Origin: Asterias amurensis
Taxonomy: Eukaryota; Echinodermata; Asteroidea; Forcipulatida; Asteriidae
Assembly: GCF_032118995.1 (NCBI RefSeq)
Contig: NC_092648.1
Span: forward strand, 23,092,450 to 23,156,449
DNA length: 64,000 nt
Direction: 5' to 3'
Under the pieces are notes generated by a model. The model was not told the DNA's origin. It made no database searches and worked only from the letters and a program-made list of their open reading frames with translations. Positions 23,249 through 31,635 of the stretch are shown here, in pieces (position 1 is the first letter of the stretch; the number at the start of each line of letters is the position of its first letter). The position numbers and the translations under genes are program-made.

Positions 23249-23752
23249 ATAGAGTTAGCAGAACCATCAATAAATAAAACAGTGTCATTGGCATACAGGG
23301 ATAAACGAAACTTTTTACCGGCTACCTGAATACCTTTTAAATCTTCATCATTATCTATCATCATAGCAAGAACTTCAACACACAGAATAAATAAATAGGG
23401 GCTTAGACCATCACCTTGCCTGCAGCCCCGTTCTATATTAAATGATTCTGAACGAAAACCATTCACCAAAATCGAAGACGAGGCCTGGTTATAAAAGAGG
23501 TTGATCCACTTTTTATGGATGCACCACCAAAGTTGAATTTATCAAGAACTTTGAGGATTAACTCGTGTGATAGTGAATCGAAAGCTTTTTCAAAATCAAT
23601 GGAAATTAATTGACCAGGTATGTTATTCGAACCGGTGACATCAAGTAAGTCATACATCAAACGAATATTTTCACCAATGAACATTTTTGACGCTCATTAA
23701 CAATGATGGGTAGATAAGTTTTCAGTCTCTCAGCAATACAGTCGTTTGACCA

Positions 23753-26120
23753 GTTCCGGATCACTTTTTGAACTCATGGTTTTTTTTTTGCCTTCTCTTC
23801 AATATTTTTAACAAACAAAGGCAATCAGTTTACCTGAACATTTCATAAAACTCACCAAGTATCCATTAGCAAAAAAAGAATAATACTTTTAAAGTGGCTT
23901 CGAGAATAGTACTGTCACCCGTTTGACCAGTTCCGGACCGGTTGAATTTATTCCGAATCAGTAGAGCGCCCTCTATTGTAACCCAATACTCCCATTCATA
24001 AAACTGTTACACAATAACACAAACTTCAGAAAAGTGTGTTGACATGGACGTGTGGACCTCTCTCTATCGTTATATTGTTATTTATAGTTATTTTAACTGG
24101 CTTGTTTCTATAAAACAAAAGTAAAATATTGTTTTAATTTTTTTTTAGTTATTTACTCTTCTATTATTTACTCTTCTCTTTATTTTATTTTTTTTTTTTG
24201 GTGAAAATGAAGGGGGGGGGGGGTTGCACTATTATTAATGGAGAGATAGAGGGTTATGGAATAAAATAAGGGATACTGGCAATGGGGCAAGTAAACAGTG
24301 TTTATTTTAAATTGGTTTTTGCCTCGTGTAGCATGAAGGAGGGAAGACGTCTTTTAAATCAGGTGATCACAAAACTGTTGCAAAAAACTCCACTGTGTTG
24401 AAATGTCAAACTATAACTTCTTGAGCAAAACATTTATGCAATATCATATAAAAACTCCCGTTTTTTATTTGCCCCCATCTTTATTGTTTTTATTGATTTT
24501 TTTTAAACAAAATAATTTCAGTTATAAAAACAAAATTTGAACTCATTAATCAATTTATTTATTTACTCTCCTTTTTTTGTTTGGTGATTGGAGTGGGCGG
24601 GGGCTAAGGGAAGGTGGCAATACTATTATTGACGGAGGGGTAGGGTGGTTACTGGAATAAATTAAGGAATAGTAGGGCAAGTGAATATTTTTTGGTCGTT
24701 TCCCCTCATGTAGCATATATGGAGGAGGAAAGACTGGTCTTTTAAATCAGGTGATCAAAACTCACTATTTTTGGGAGAAGACAAACTCAACTGTGTTGAA
24801 AGAATGTCGAACTATTTTATTTTGCAAAATAACGATAAAAACTCTTCTGTTTTGTATTTGCCTTGCATAAAAAAGTACAGACAATTGGCAATGGCCCCGC
24901 CTCATTGGCCCAAAGTTTTTTTCAATTCAGAACAAATTTTGTTTACTTGTGAGATTATTTTGCATTACTTATAGCCAAGTCAACTAAAAAACTGTTACTG
25001 CAGGTATTCTGATGAAATCAGAGGGCACCCATTTTCACATAAATTTTAAATTGATACATTGTAATGTATATCATTGAATATTATGAAGAAAACAAAATGA
25101 AAGAATAAAATAACCAGCCTGCTGAGCAGCAATGGTAAAGGATGCAGTTTAGCACAAGGCATATTATCACGAGAGACATACCAACAGTCTTACACAGACA
25201 TAAACTTATTAGCACATAAAACACATTCTTTTTTTGTTAACACAGTTCAATATTTTATTGATACTTGAAAAGTTTCTTTTGTACAGTAATCTACATGTAG
25301 TTTAATATACATCATTGAGCTCAATTCATGAATCCCAAAAAATGAATGGGGTGGTGGTAATTAAAACATAAAAATCATGTAAAAAGAAATTTCTGTCACA
25401 TTAGAAAAAAATCACATATTGAATTATTGCTTTATCAAATATTGCTTAACATGTAGTGTGAGATATAAACTGGGCTTAACCAAGCAGTGCTCCAAGGTGG
25501 AATTGAATTTTGGAAATGAATTTTGGAAAATGCAAATTCCCAGTTGTTTGATCCCCTCTAGGCTGAATTGTGTAAACATTTCTATCTTCACTAATGATTT
25601 ATAATCCACTAATGATGTGTACAAATGAAATATATTCTTCTTTCCCAAATACATTGAATTGACCTTTTGACCCAAACCAAATTCCCTCTTTTAAGGTACA
25701 TGTACAACCCTATTTTTGTACTATGTAGGTCTCTGTAATTTTTCAAAATCTGCTCTTGGCAACTCTGCTCTGGGCAATTAAGAGTACATTGCCTATTTCA
25801 ACATGAGGGTTACTTAGGTTAGAGCAACTAAATATTCCCCACTTTCATAAAGGATGCTATCTATCATTTCTATTGAAAGAGAGTACATCATAAAACTGAG
25901 TTCGTTGACCCTTGGGACCTTTGATCCCCTCTTTAAAGGAACTGAACACGACCGGTAGTTGTCAAAATCCAGTATTTTCACAATATTTTATACTATCAAC
26001 AGCTCTCCATCACTTGTTACCATGTAAGTTTATGTATTTTTACATGTAGTTACCAAACATGTACAGTGCCTTTAACGTAATCTTTTATTAAAAAAGTAAG
26101 ATCATGGACTTTGTGTAAGT
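23753..26120. other. Left interior of the pogo-type transposon, non-coding
   Basis: AT-rich; includes repeated segments with (T)n and G-runs (24180-24240 and 24560-24680 resemble each other, both with GATCAxAAACTxxT and GGTGATCA near AGACxxxTCTTTTAAATCAGG). No frame has a family signature. A decayed TTAA-MITE fragment lies at 25938-26072. Confidence 0.5.
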
Positions 26121-26123
26121 GTT

Positions 26124-26672
26124 TCATCTTTCATCCCAGAGCACTGCTCCATCTTCAGACATTAATTTCATACATTTTCCTTCTGGCATAGCTCTCAAGG
26201 CGGTCACTAGAATATCACCTAGGCCTGGTCTATCTCCGACAACAATATATGTACATGGTATAATCACGCCCCCACCTTTATCAAACACGGATGGCCATGG
26301 AGCAAAACTCTGAACTGGGTCTCCAGTAGTTTGTGCATATATTTTACCCCCAGATTGAATAATTGCTCTAAATGCAGAACCAAGGCCCCTTGGTGCATGC
26401 CCTATTGGCAAACCTGCAACATCCTGTAACTTTAAATGCTTTTTGACATCTGTAATCAAATTATGTACATCATCTGAAAATGAATCCAAAGAAGGGATCC
26501 ACACAAGAGTTGCATCTTGGTCATTGATGTTAGTGTGTTCCAGGTCAACCGGTAGAAATGTTGCAGGAGTTGTTACTGGTGGCTTAATTTGGTATGCATG
26601 ATAGCCTTTAATAACAGAGTTTAGAAGTCTGTACTGCACACCATTCGTGTTGATATTGCTGCTGCTGCCAAG
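26124..26672 (-). CDS. Unidentified protein exon in the pogo-type transposon
   Basis: A 182-codon open exon beginning after the acceptor TTTTCAG and ending at a stop at 26124. It begins LGSSSNINTNGVQYRLLNSV, with VIKGYHAYQIKPP, LPVDLEHTNINDQDATLVWI, LKLQDVAGLPIGHAPRGLGS, GDPVQSFAPWP, GGGVIIPCTYIVVGDRPGL and ALRAMPEGKCMKLM. No stops or frameshifts interrupt it and the Gly/Pro-rich blocks look like a constrained globular domain. I do not recognise the family. It lies downstream of the transposase on the same strand, so it may be a 3' exon of that transcript or a separate accessory gene. Confidence 0.6.
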   Translation of the reverse strand, partial: LGSSSNINTNGVQYRLLNSVIKGYHAYQIKPPVTTPATFLPVDLEHTNINDQDATLVWIPSLDSFSDDVHNLITDVKKHLKLQDVAGLPIGHAPRGLGSAFRAIIQSGGKIYAQTTGDPVQSFAPWPSVFDKGGGVIIPCTYIVVGDRPGLGDILVTALRAMPEGKCMKLMSEDGAVLWDER

Positions 26673-26756
26673 CTGAAAAGAAAAATTGTGTAAACTTAAT
26701 AGTGCTTATTTGTGGTGCTGCCGTATACTGTATAAGCAAGCAAACATGTGTACTAA

Positions 26757-27089
26757 AAGACACTAGACACTATTGGTAATTGTCAAAGGCCAGTCTTCTC
26801 ACTTGGTGTATCTCAACCTACATTGTAGATGCATAAAATAACAAACCTGTAAAAATTTGAGCTCAATCGATCGTTGTGAGATAATACTGAAAGAAAAAAC
26901 ACCCTTATCATCATTCTGAGCTCTCGAAATCAAAATTCATTGAAAACAACTTCTTTCTCAAAAACTAGGTAACTTTAGAGGGAGCCGTTTCTCACAATGT
27001 TTTATACTATCAACCTCTATCCATTACTCATTACATAGTAAGGTTTTATGCTAATAATTTTGAGTAATTACCAATAGTGTCCACTGCCT
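26757..27089. mobile_element. TTAA-type MITE inside the transposon
   Basis: Starts AAGACACTAGACACTATTGG after CTAA (a mutated TTAA) and ends CCAATAGTGTCCACTGCCT before TTAA. It sits in the probable intron between the PHD exon and the exon at 26124-26672. Confidence 0.75.
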
Positions 27090-27251
27090 TTAAATAAAGC
27101 CAGATAAAAGGTGAGATTAGTACATGTAGTAACTTGTTTATTTTGACAGGACCAGGTGGGATCAAATCAATTATACACAATTTGGATTAACCATTTTGCG
27201 GGATGCAACTGCCCCCAAAAGTTATGCCAATGCAAACAAATATCTTGTTAA

Positions 27252-27519
27252 AGACACCAAACACTACTGGTAATTTTCAAAGACTAGTCTTCACAGTTGG
27301 TGTATCTCAACATGCATACAATTCTAAATCTGAGGTCTTGAAATCAAATTAGTGGAAAATTACTTCTTTCTCGAAAACTTCAATGTACGTCACTTCAGTT
27401 GTAGCTGTTTCCCACAATGTTTTATACTAACAACCTCTTCCCATTACTCGTAACCAAGAAAGGTTTTATGCTAACATTAAATAACTATTTTGAATATTTA
27501 CCAATAGTGTCCACTGCCT
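27252..27519. mobile_element. TTAA-type MITE abutting the PHD exon
   Basis: TTAA at 27248-27251 and 27520-27523. Left end AGACACCAAACACTACTGG, right end CCAATAGTGTCCACTGCCT. Internally shortened. It ends two bases from the stop codon of the PHD-like frame. Confidence 0.75.
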
Positions 27520-27524
27520 TTAAT

Positions 27525-27905
27525 TCAAACCACACATTCATGACAAACAAACTTAGTGACACTATGTTCCAACAGTGCATATGGGTCATAGGCAAGGGTT
27601 GAAGGAACACACGTTTGATACATCCATTTAAGGCACCCATCACACTGTATCCACAACAGATTATCCCCCATACGGACATTGTGTTCATAAGAGATGTTGC
27701 ACACTGTGCAAAATGTCTCTGTGCTTGTCGGGTTGACTTTTGCAGAACGACTCAATTTCTTTAGATATCTTTTCTTGGCATTTTTCTCCATCTCTGCTTT
27801 ATGTCTTATCTTCTTTAGCTTGTGCAAGGCCATTTGCCTGAGACATTTAGATGAACTTAAATTGTCAGGCAATGAAGAAACAAGAGTGTTGGTCGAGATG
27901 AGCAA
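27525..27905 (-). CDS. PHD-like zinc finger at the C-terminus of the pogo-type transposase
   Basis: A lysine-rich stretch (MALHKLKKIRHKAEMEKNAK) precedes FCTVCNISYEHN, WIQCDGCLKWMYQTCVPS and KFVCHECVV. This is the Cys layout of a PHD finger, C-x2-C ... C-x2-C-x7-C ... C-x2-C, with the WxxCDxC-type core. The zinc-binding His expected in the C-x-x-W-Y-H-x-x-C block is replaced by Tyr. PHD fingers read histone tails and cap the C-termini of several animal transposases. The frame is one base out from the transposase frame it overlaps (27857-27905), so a frameshift, a short intron or ribosomal slippage separates them. Confidence 0.7.
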   Translation of the reverse strand: MLISTNTLVSSLPDNLSSSKCLRQMALHKLKKIRHKAEMEKNAKKRYLKKLSRSAKVNPTSTETFCTVCNISYEHNVRMGDNLLWIQCDGCLKWMYQTCVPSTLAYDPYALLEHSVTKFVCHECVV

Positions 27906-29263
27906 GATGGTCCAGCTTGTGGGAATGTGAGGGCATCTTGCAAAGTGGAGGATATCATGGATGCTGAGGATGTAGGCTGTGTGGAGTCAGATGGGTTGTT
28001 TGGTGTGCTTCCTATTTGTTCAACTGCAGCAGCAAGCATATCCAGCCCACAGAGCACTTGGCTCTCCTGTGCGGGGGCATACGGTACTGAAGATGTTTTT
28101 GCTGGTACTGCTTTCAGTTTGAGCTGTTTATATGTCTCGAAGCGTGGTGAAACAGTAACAGCCATCTCCCCTCCGTTATCCTCATTAACAATGGACATCC
28201 TCTTCTCATACTTAGTAAGTGTGTCTTTGTCCAAAACTGACTGGAAGACCTGAAATGCTTGATCAGCTCCTTGTACGGGGGCACTTGTGGCAGCCTCAGC
28301 TGTAAGTGTACTTGACTGAAATGTCAAAGATGGCTTCAGCTTGTCATTAGAAATGGCTTGTCTGTTTATTGGATGAATTCCTGATGACTTGAAACTGTTC
28401 ACAATAGTTAGAGGCTTGTAGAATGCAGTAACGGTTTCGTTGAGCTTCCTTGGGAAAGTCGCTTTGTTGATTGGTTTCCCTGGGTTCTCCTTTGTATTTC
28501 TTTTCACCGTTGTATTCCACTGCCTCTTCAAAGCACCAAAAATACCAACATCCAGGGGTTGCATCAGATGAGTTGCATTTGGAACAATTCGAAAGATTTC
28601 GATTCCATGAGCAACCGCATAGTCAAATGTAGTGACATCAATATGGCACGATGCACTGTCAATGAGGAGAATAACTGGTCGCTCAGGACCGGCATGTCTG
28701 TCAAAATGATCCAAGAATTTCAGGAAAGTATCACTATCCATCCATCCCTTCTTTGTGTAGTGGACGGCTGATCCTCTTGCTGACCCAACCAATGGATCAT
28801 ACGCTGTGGGACATGGCTTGGGGAAAACAAAGAATGGTGGCATGAGTGCTCCTTCTGCACTGCCACAAAACATCACCGTCAGTCGCTGCTTCGAGGATCC
28901 CCCAGAGAGATGTGGTAGTGAACTTGGATATTCTGACTTGGTGGGTCCTATCACATGCCCCGATTTGCTCCCCATCTGAAATCCGGTTTCATCTGCATTC
29001 CATACTCTGTGTGGTTTGTCTAACAATTGCAGATCTGACACAAATTCTCTGTAACTATCAAACCATTCATCGACTTTGTCTTGCGTGACTCTTACTCTTG
29101 ATGATTCAAGGACTGAATCCTTTCTCCTTTGCAAGACATCAGAGTTTCTCGCCATGAATGCATAGTACCAAGTGTAGCTGGGTCTGCTCGACTTGAAATT
29201 CCTCTTCTCCTTTATGAGCAGTCCCTCAACAAAATCAAGGAAGTCTCCTGGGGACAATCCCAT
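27857..29263 (-). CDS. pogo/Tigger-type DDE transposase (DDD catalytic triad)
   Basis: A 468-codon uninterrupted frame. The N-terminal part (about 1-75, SYTWYYAFMARNSDVLQRRK, RVTQDKVDEWFDSYREF) resembles a CENP-B/Tc5 HTH. The catalytic core has D in VWNADETGF, D in VILLIDSASCHID, and the third D in NATHLMQPLDVGIFGALK, 36 residues after the second (D35D). All three acidic residues are present. The exon is preceded by TATTTTTCTATAG (acceptor) at 29264-29275, so an upstream exon with the first psq-type HTH is expected; none was recognised to 31.4 kb. The tail (about 370-468) is Ser/Thr-rich, leading to the PHD-like part. Despite the old host LINE, the core is undamaged, so the insertion is young or the frame is under constraint. 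Confidence 0.88.
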   Translation of the reverse strand: MGLSPGDFLDFVEGLLIKEKRNFKSSRPSYTWYYAFMARNSDVLQRRKDSVLESSRVRVTQDKVDEWFDSYREFVSDLQLLDKPHRVWNADETGFQMGSKSGHVIGPTKSEYPSSLPHLSGGSSKQRLTVMFCGSAEGALMPPFFVFPKPCPTAYDPLVGSARGSAVHYTKKGWMDSDTFLKFLDHFDRHAGPERPVILLIDSASCHIDVTTFDYAVAHGIEIFRIVPNATHLMQPLDVGIFGALKRQWNTTVKRNTKENPGKPINKATFPRKLNETVTAFYKPLTIVNSFKSSGIHPINRQAISNDKLKPSLTFQSSTLTAEAATSAPVQGADQAFQVFQSVLDKDTLTKYEKRMSIVNEDNGGEMAVTVSPRFETYKQLKLKAVPAKTSSVPYAPAQESQVLCGLDMLAAAVEQIGSTPNNPSDSTQPTSSASMISSTLQDALTFPQAGPSCSSRPTLLFLHCLTI

Positions 29264-29275
29264 ACCTATAGAAAA

Positions 29276-31440
29276 ATAGAAGAATCAATTACTTAATGCA
29301 AACAAAATTGCACTTAAAAAAGATTCCTAACAAATTATAGTATTGTTGCTCATAGACTACAAAAGCATTCACAATACTATACACTTTTTTTTAAATGCTA
29401 GCTATCCATTTCATAAGTTGCATTGGTTTCATTGAAATTGCACAGTCCGTTGTTTTTTAATTATAACAGATATTAAAACAGGCAATAGGGTTCCTCACAA
29501 ACCCCAACCAGCAAAGCAATTTTTAAATCCTGCTCTGTACATTTTTTGAAACAGTATACTAGTCTAAATAAAAAAAATACACACCCAGCAAAAGGTATGA
29601 AAACATGTGAAAATGTTAGGCCTACAGTTAAACTTAATGTTAAGGGCCTTTGAGACAATAGGGTTAATAATAATAACTTACTGGATAATGACTTATATTA
29701 AAATGTTTTGTAATCGAGTTCAACAAAGAAAAATTAACTAGAAATAGAATAGGATTTGAACCAACAACCTCCCGTTTAACAGGCCACTGGCACTTTTAAA
29801 AAGGCTATGCGTTCTTCGAAACAAAATCCCATAATTGGCATAAATGGGAGCCCCCCCCCCAACATTGTTTGACCCATTCTGCGTTCAACTAGGCCTAGCT
29901 TTTAAATAAACAAGCTAAACTGATCTATTCTATGTGTCCCTAATTATTGATGGCTAATGCGAATGGGCAAGACGTTCATTTCAGTGGGCCCTCATATTCG
30001 TGAAGCTGTCAAGTGTTAAATTTTGCAAGGCTAAACAGATTGAAATGAAAGAAATACAAAGAAAGAAAAAATGAGAAGAAAAAAACAGCCACAGGTTACA
30101 AGCAAAAAGAAATTGTAAAAACTTGCCCCATCACCGCTACGTACAATCTAATTTAAGTAAAGCCTATTTAATTTCACTAATTTTCAGTTTTCTAAATCTA
30201 ATGATTGTGAATGTAAAAATATGATTAAAAAATTAATTCGAAAACCTAGAGACCCAATTCACAGGAACAGTCTCCGACTGCCCCTGTATTTATGTAATCA
30301 TGTTATTGTTAGGCCTAACCCTCATAAAATAAAAATTTATTTTAATATTTAGGTGTTAAATTAATTAATTAATTAAACATTCAAATTAAAATTTACCTCC
30401 AGTCCAGTTCTGATTAGTTTTGAAACCTTGCGTTGAAGATTCGGTGACCAAAGAAACAATGAAAAGATAGGGGTCAAACCACAGAGTACTACAGAGCAAC
30501 TTCCATCCAAATCCATCTGTCCATAAGAAACTGCTTGTTCTTCTGTCCGGCCTGGCCCTGACGACAGCACAGCAGAGCACTGCCGCGACAACGTCGATAA
30601 CAAAACAGCGCAGGCAAGAAAAAGTGAAGCGCGCCTAAAAGCAAAATTGACCCGAATATCTCACTCTTACAGACCTCACTTCTCCTTTTAGACTTTATTT
30701 TCTCACCAAAAAATTAAATCCGTACAAGAATATGCAAAAGTAGTGTAGATTAACAGTCCTATTATTAAACAAAACTGCAGAATTATACTCAAATGTTGCC
30801 GATCGTCTGCTCAAAAAGCCGACCTCCATCTTGAAAACTAAATGTAATCATACCGACGGCTGTTGTATGCAGTAGTTTTAAATTACTTGGACTAGTACAA
30901 AAACGCACGCTTCCTCTGCAACTAAAGAATTAAACTTTGTGCAACAGCCGTATGGTTTTAACTAACGGAGTGCGCCACCATTTGACGTACACCGATGTTT
31001 TCAAAGATTGAGTGATCCGGAACTGGTCACAGGAACAATGCGTCACAACCAACGATTTCGGTAATTTTATCTCGTCAAAAAAAAAAGATGACTGCTCTAA
31101 TTTAGCTATTATTATTTTTTACACCTTTTTACCGTTTGAAATAAATGTTAATCGTCCTAGCGCTGCAATTTGAAAGGTGAGCAGTTTAACAGCGTTTTTC
31201 AACAATGTTTTTTTTTCTTTTTTCTACGATCATTTTTGCCGACAAACTTTAGAAAAATTGCCATAATATATTTTTTCGATGATGTTTGGCACCTTATTTT
31301 GGGTTGGTTGGTTTATTGGATGTGGTTCGGCATATTCATTAACAGAAATTGGTAATGTTACAAGTAATTTAATTATGTGGCTGCTTCAAAGTTTAAGTGA
31401 TCCGGAACTGGTCAATGATCCGGAACTGGTCAAACGACTG
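29276..31440. other. Right interior of the pogo-type transposon
   Basis: No recognisable coding domain. A frame on the minus strand at about 30399-30603 ends at a plausible donor (CTGGAG then GTAAAT) and starts with ATG, so it could be a 5' exon of the transposase transcript. Its residues match no domain I know. TIR-like motifs recur at about 31012 and 31397-31440. Confidence 0.4.
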
Positions 31441-31635
31441 TACACGTCGACGCCAATTTATAGGATGTTCAGCAGAGAAATAGGACGCCAATTTTTTAAA
31501 AATTGCCGGGGTTTGTCCCCTTTAGCTAACAAAGTGATTATGCCGTATTTCTGACTGACTGACAACTTGCCCGAGAAATAAGAAAAGTTAGGTGAACGTA
31601 AGAGGAACCACGATAAATCAGGCGAAAAGAATGTA

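Follow-up and report, generated by a model that had tools for sequence, protein, structure and literature searches.

Pogo elements are recorded, in the sections of Gao et al. (2020; PMC7386202) drawn on here, as being 1.20–5.20 kb long with one or two open reading frames (ORFs) for transposases, TA targets in most families and catalytic signatures spanning DD29-59D, whilst those of the Fot/Fot-like type combine HTH_psq/HTH_Tnp_Tc5 domains with DD35D. The element considered here occupies positions 23739–31440 (7,702 bp) of a 64,000-nucleotide stretch of Asterias amurensis DNA (NC_092648.1, positions 23,092,450 to 23,156,449 of the forward strand; hereafter 'the window'), and is probably best explained as a large cut-and-paste DNA transposon of the pogo superfamily, Fot-like in domain make-up, that includes a terminal exon kept by selection. 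A first-pass annotation of the window had already called the element pogo-type and larger than typical pogo/Tigger elements. Its terminal inverted repeats (TIRs) flanked by TA, and its DDE_1 domain with 35 residues between the last two catalytic aspartates, within the DD29-59D range, support the first of these calls, and lengths of 7,702 bp in the window and 8,068 bp in a second copy (C13) set against the range above bear out the second. The N-terminal helix-turn-helix (HTH) region of pogo transposases is present in the C13 copy and deleted in the window copy. Assignment to the Fot/Fot-like type is by domains (HTH_psq above and HTH_Tnp_Tc5 below the Pfam cut-off, together with DD35D). The likeness to the elements of Gao et al. 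(2020) thus lies in the domains and the TA target site, whilst the differences are the length of 7.7–8.1 kb, the extra terminal exon and the PHD-like finger at the C-terminus; the main text of that paper makes no mention of PHD. No description of an element of such make-up was found in the open-licence literature, judged by titles and the openings of abstracts.

Both ends of the element carry a perfect 25-bp TIR, CAGTCGTTTGACCAGTTCCGGATCA, with TA on either side, just as had been claimed at first; the inverted-end listing of 27 nt counts the flanking TA as well. The ends are as follows, with coordinates throughout being those of the window.

23739–23763, forward strand: TIR, 3′ end relative to the element's genes; the same ends are found in all five copies.
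31416–31440, reverse strand: TIR, 5′ end relative to the element's genes.
23737–23738, no strand: TA target duplication, left.
31441–31442, no strand: TA target duplication, right.

Genome searches covered 491,506,623 bases in 23 contigs, where the TIR had 348 matches at ≤3 mismatches and the reversed pattern had 0, which excludes a chance origin of the repeats. Among the part of the 348 matches that was listed, ten places had zero mismatches, and these are the ends of five exon-carrying copies. Joining the flanks gives a continuous reading across the junction (...YKLASTCIAERLKTYLP...), and the restored host frame proposed in the first-pass annotation therefore stands locally; the frame is a reverse-transcriptase fragment (RVT_1, E=6e-8) that is broken by stops and shifts near the junction regardless of the element, and over its whole length the proposal fails.

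When the genome was searched with the product of the terminal exon, the eight matches obtained comprised five places and three small fragments of those on C6, and a relaxed search with the exon core returned the same five places and one weak match. With the transposase frame as query, no places but these five exceeded 90% identity; the next best was a decayed relative on C10 (65–82%), followed by distant ones. Although the five copies were first found via the exon, the transposase search and the TIR scan independently lead to the same five. The C10 relative (L039) has no end regions, so it is uninformative on the exon in its lineage. The five close copies represent three insertion events, namely the window, C13 and C6. 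The C13 copy (L009, 634–8701; 8,068 bp) has other flanks with TA on both sides, and differs from the window copy at 65 of 7,697 aligned bases (0.84%) plus indels. The C6 copies (L010, L011 and L012) have identical flanks and are the same insertion present three times, and have therefore spread by duplication of the region; they have lost most of the transposase whilst retaining the finger region and the exon. On C6 they lie at 3.68–3.80 Mb, 51 and 58 kb apart, as a segmental triplication of one internally deleted element.

The transposase is best read from the C13 copy, which has a single 700-codon frame with its first Met at codon 16, holding HTH_psq, HTH_Tnp_Tc5, DDE_1 and the C-terminal PHD-like finger. 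DDE_1 (57.4 bits) and HTH_psq (28.8 bits) score above the Pfam cut-offs, and PHD (20.0 against a cut-off of 24) and HTH_Tnp_Tc5 (19.1 against 22.2) below them. Residues D212, D323 and D359 form the D-D35D signature, with 35 residues between the last two, and the finger carries the C4HC3 zinc ligands of a PHD finger despite its Pfam score. Relative to C13 the window copy has two lesions.

27857–29284, reverse strand: remaining transposase frame with DDE_1 and DD35D, without the DNA-binding N-terminus.
29270–29272, reverse strand: place of a 334-bp deletion, from comparison with C13.
27890–27892, reverse strand: place of a 1-base deletion, from comparison with C13.
27534–27710, reverse strand: PHD-like finger, residues 93–151 of its window frame; below the Pfam cut-off.

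Loss of the 334-bp stretch that C13 has at ~29271 has taken with it, in the window copy, a splice acceptor, the start codon and the HTH region. At ~27891 the window copy is one base shorter, which puts the C-terminus in another frame, and it is because of this loss that the finger is out of frame there. The first-pass annotation had read an undamaged D-D35D transposase and an overlapping, out-of-frame PHD domain. DDE_1, DD35D and a PHD-like domain are indeed present, but we rejected an intact window transposase on account of the two losses, and an overlapping reading frame since the finger is the in-frame end of the 700-codon frame of C13; by comparison of the copies, both features are artefacts of decay. 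The window copy is defective, and the transposase frame of the C13 copy is open. In the window finger, Tyr stands in place of a zinc-ligand His that the other four copies keep. What is left of the transposase end reads in one frame with the finger in L011 and L012, and in L010 this frame stops inside the last cysteines of the finger.

The small number of close copies could suggest that the window holds a domesticated host gene instead of a transposon copy, and related PHD-bearing tandem genes on C18 do look domesticated, but the perfect TIRs with TA, the frame-breaking lesions of the window copy and the second copy at another site make this extremely improbable. The C18 genes (L041, 2905–5019, and L042, 5894–7978; ~2.39–2.40 Mb) are tandem pogo-like genes with long open frames and are possibly domesticated. 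Their frames of 694 and 704 codons resemble that of the element in having HTH_Tnp_Tc5, DDE_1 and a PHD at the C-terminus, each of which passes the Pfam cut-off in the 694-codon frame and falls below it in the 704-codon one, and differ in being ~24–29% identical over the shared transposase part and, on our reading, in having some catalytic Asp altered; in neither gene was there a match to the exon beyond chance. This element is thus not alone in the genome in having a pogo-like transposase that ends in a PHD. Three further pogo-like frames, of 523, 476 and 708 codons, lie head to tail on C6 (L044, 1667–9434; ~17.82 Mb), and the 708-codon frame has DDE_1 by Pfam and no PHD match.

Downstream of the transposase, on the same strand, lies the exon, which had been described at first as a 182-codon exon of no known family; it proved to be open, with a fair 3′ splice site and no database match.

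26124–26672, reverse strand: terminal coding exon of no known family, 182 codons plus TGA; acceptor ttttcag; weak HIRAN-like core.
26084–26089, reverse strand: AATAAA, 34 bases past the exon stop, with predicted use in polyadenylation.
30397–30660, reverse strand: predicted 5′ exon region with donor GAG/GTAAAT at its end (donor score 7.4); may be untranslated.
25935–26084, no strand: diverged short-repeat copy adjoining the exon.
26756–27102, no strand: short-repeat copy between transposase and exon; the repeat also matches L041, L046 and L047.
27250–27532, no strand: short-repeat copy right after the transposase stop.

The short repeat at these last three places also matches several other loci in the genome. 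The exon belongs to the element. Each of the five close copies, which go back to three insertion events, has it between these TIRs, and the possibility raised at the outset that other full-length copies would be without it was not borne out, the C13 copy and the three internally deleted C6 copies all having it. The exon was not found outside the element in this genome, either with its product or in the relaxed core search with the best candidates scored, and a host source gene within this genome, the other possibility first raised, was rejected since there was no match beyond the five copies. The only further match of the relaxed search (L018, E 0.256) was also set aside; by our own reading, with no database result behind it, its frame looks like a long interspersed nuclear element (LINE) endonuclease.

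Silent changes were assessed over the 169 codons past a small frame difference in the five copies, where 119 of 507 sites are silent. Fifteen sites have changed, 8 of them silent and 7 replacing or stop (p=0.012), and with the five changes private to the C6 copies removed, 10 sites remain (6 silent and 4 not; p=0.014). Between the window and C13 there are 5 silent changes and 1 replacing (pS 0.042, pN 0.003), and between C13 and L010 there are 5 silent and 2 replacing, the transposase end having 7 silent and 8 replacing in this last comparison. Several observations weigh against the overall explanation preferred here. Low divergence between the lineages continues for ~850 bp downstream of the exon, nearly as low as within it; there is an additional base close to the exon start in the C6 copies, and L011 carries a stop in the exon; the donors at the transposase end are poor, the best scoring 4.8 and being out of phase; and splicing and expression of the exon are predictions from the sequence. 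The exon might be a passenger without a role in transposition, a piece of another gene or of a nested repeat that the common ancestor of the copies picked up a single time. The short-repeat copies flanking it on both sides and its presence in three insertions only are in keeping with this, as is the little diverged stretch downstream, and the 348 TIR-type ends set against five exon-carrying copies mean that related miniatures do without the exon in cis. We regard a passenger as somewhat unlikely, given the silent-change excess, the exon's own 3′ splice site, stop and AATAAA, and the failure to find a source gene in this genome.

How the exon would be joined to the rest of the element was approached through splice scores, which come from a weight matrix, with phases worked out by hand, and are thus weak evidence. 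The exon opens with its acceptor (ttttcag, score 7.8) and has no Met near its start, and therefore needs an upstream exon. A phase-matching donor is the GAG/GTAAAT of the predicted 5′ exon (window ~30396, score 7.4), to which the terminal exon may be spliced, whilst several other GTs in the element outscore this donor, up to 10.3. In its own frame the 5′ exon differs between the window and C13 by 3 residues, and because of this it may be untranslated. A further explanation has the exon as the true C-terminus of the transposase, giving a HTH-DDE-PHD-exon protein through a splice just before the stop codon. The exon is on the same strand and next in order, its acceptor is of phase 0 and there is a phase-0 GT just before the transposase stop, but the score of this donor is no higher than 1.1, and in C13 the frame is closed by a stop of its own right after the finger; we consider such a protein quite unlikely.

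A resemblance of the exon product to HIRAN domains was tested with hhalign. The HIRAN profile used consists of eight sequences, four taken from the 8 plasmid records and four from the 41 phage records that a HIRAN bait found, and of these eight, four are annotated as HIRAN, one is annotated as hypothetical and three lie where nothing is annotated. The exon aligned to the HIRAN core with a score of 20.8 and a probability of 3.7%, compared with 0.1% for the reversed exon, and its score was reached by 2 of 400 shuffles and by 0 of 128 ORF pieces (3 of 400 and 0 of 128 with a host frame added to the profile). What it matches, weakly, is a core E-x-x-N-x-x-D-x-x-A ... G-x-x-I/L-G-H/Y-x-P-R, the wording of the motif being our own. 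It differs from the HIRAN of HLTF in falling under every database cut-off and in having ~25 extra residues within the core. The resemblance is called into question by several results: the exon product has no match in Pfam, PHROGs, NCBIfam or PDB; the host HIRAN frame, itself just under the Pfam cut-off, reaches 79% by hhalign against 3.7% for the exon; the decoy ORF pieces, drawn from the loci of this analysis, contain near-duplicates; and the single-sequence structure model of the exon has a predicted local distance difference test score (pLDDT) of 33. Even at E≤10 the exon product matched no Pfam profile, that of HIRAN included, and searches of viral contigs, phages and prokaryotic contigs yielded nothing useful for the exon. 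PF08797 matches three places in this genome at E≤10, none of them in the element; a host frame at L049 (1363–1764) matches HIRAN with E 0.0138 and 23.8 bits, against a cut-off of 24.7. In HLTF the HIRAN domain, whose fold is a six-stranded beta-barrel with two helices, binds forks as well as single-stranded DNA, and recognition of 3′ ends has been suggested for it (PMC4666394). The exon's likeness to HIRAN is only suggestive of a DNA-end-binding accessory part, which we put forward as a hypothesis.

Near the ends of the element are five GACCAGTTC-type sites of the form TGACCAGTTCCGGA, two at one end and three at the other.

23747–23760, forward strand: site TGACCAGTTCCGGA within the TIR.
23924–23937, forward strand: subterminal site, 177 bp from the first; the spacing of 177 also occurs in the miniatures L051, L052, L053 and L055.
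31016–31029, reverse strand: subterminal site, third of its end; counterpart in L051.
31401–31414, reverse strand: subterminal site, 18 bp from the TIR site; L051 counterpart with the same spacing.
31419–31432, reverse strand: site within the TIR.

Of five places with non-perfect TIRs that were chosen, four (L051, L052, L053 and L055) make up a miniature family whose TIRs have 1–2 mismatches, and one is only a short remnant. The miniatures share the TIRs and sites with the full element, their ends being 75–82% identical by BLAST, and differ in that the stretches read have no match to transposase or exon. Positions 106–1130 of L051 were read as one miniature copy of 1,025 bp; because the surroundings contain inverted partial copies, these limits are provisional. 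Five sites are present in L051, spaced almost as in the full element, and outside the sites it is 74% identical to the C13 ends. In L051 a 9-base core is intact at 45 of 45 positions, and at 27 of 27 in the three sites outside the TIRs, which the search did not select for (p=3e-4); this core was chosen once the tenth base had been seen to differ, and the comparison is with one miniature lineage. For the 10-base core, defined first, conservation is weak: 27 of 30 positions agree in one count (p=0.05) and 18 of 20 in the other (p=0.27). The misses are at the tenth base, where L051 departs from the full element in every one of the five sites. The earlier suggestion that the motifs may be binding sites is therefore plausible as regards the 9-base core kept in the miniature and weak as regards the 10-base core, and we consider that there is moderate support for the GACCAGTTC sites being binding sites.

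The anatomy, the copies, the domains, the linkage of the exon and the excess of silent changes in it are observed, whilst the use of the sites, chromatin guiding, splicing and the HIRAN-like role are inferred. A mechanism can be proposed in which the HTH_psq/Tc5 region of a ~685-amino-acid transposase would bind all five GACCAGTTC sites, the DD35D domain would cut at the TIRs and insert at TA, and the C-terminal C4HC3 PHD-like finger may guide the transposase to chromatin. The second, terminal exon, downstream on the same strand, would be the element's own and kept by selection, and most likely adds a DNA-end-handling (HIRAN-like) part, which could be a product of its own, spliced to the 5′ exon, or else an alternative transposase end. 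In its fullest form, this would be a two-part pogo transposon, with a PHD chromatin-reading DD35D transposase and, under selection, a HIRAN-like accessory protein able to hold single-stranded 3′ DNA ends in excision or repair, alternative splicing from a shared 5′ exon giving rise to them; we offer this version tentatively and think it rather unlikely.

An 8-kb pogo element with a C-terminal PHD-like finger and a selected second exon would raise the question of whether such transposons carry their own chromatin-targeting and DNA-end-handling parts, and would be an unusual addition to the pogo elements from which host genes can derive.

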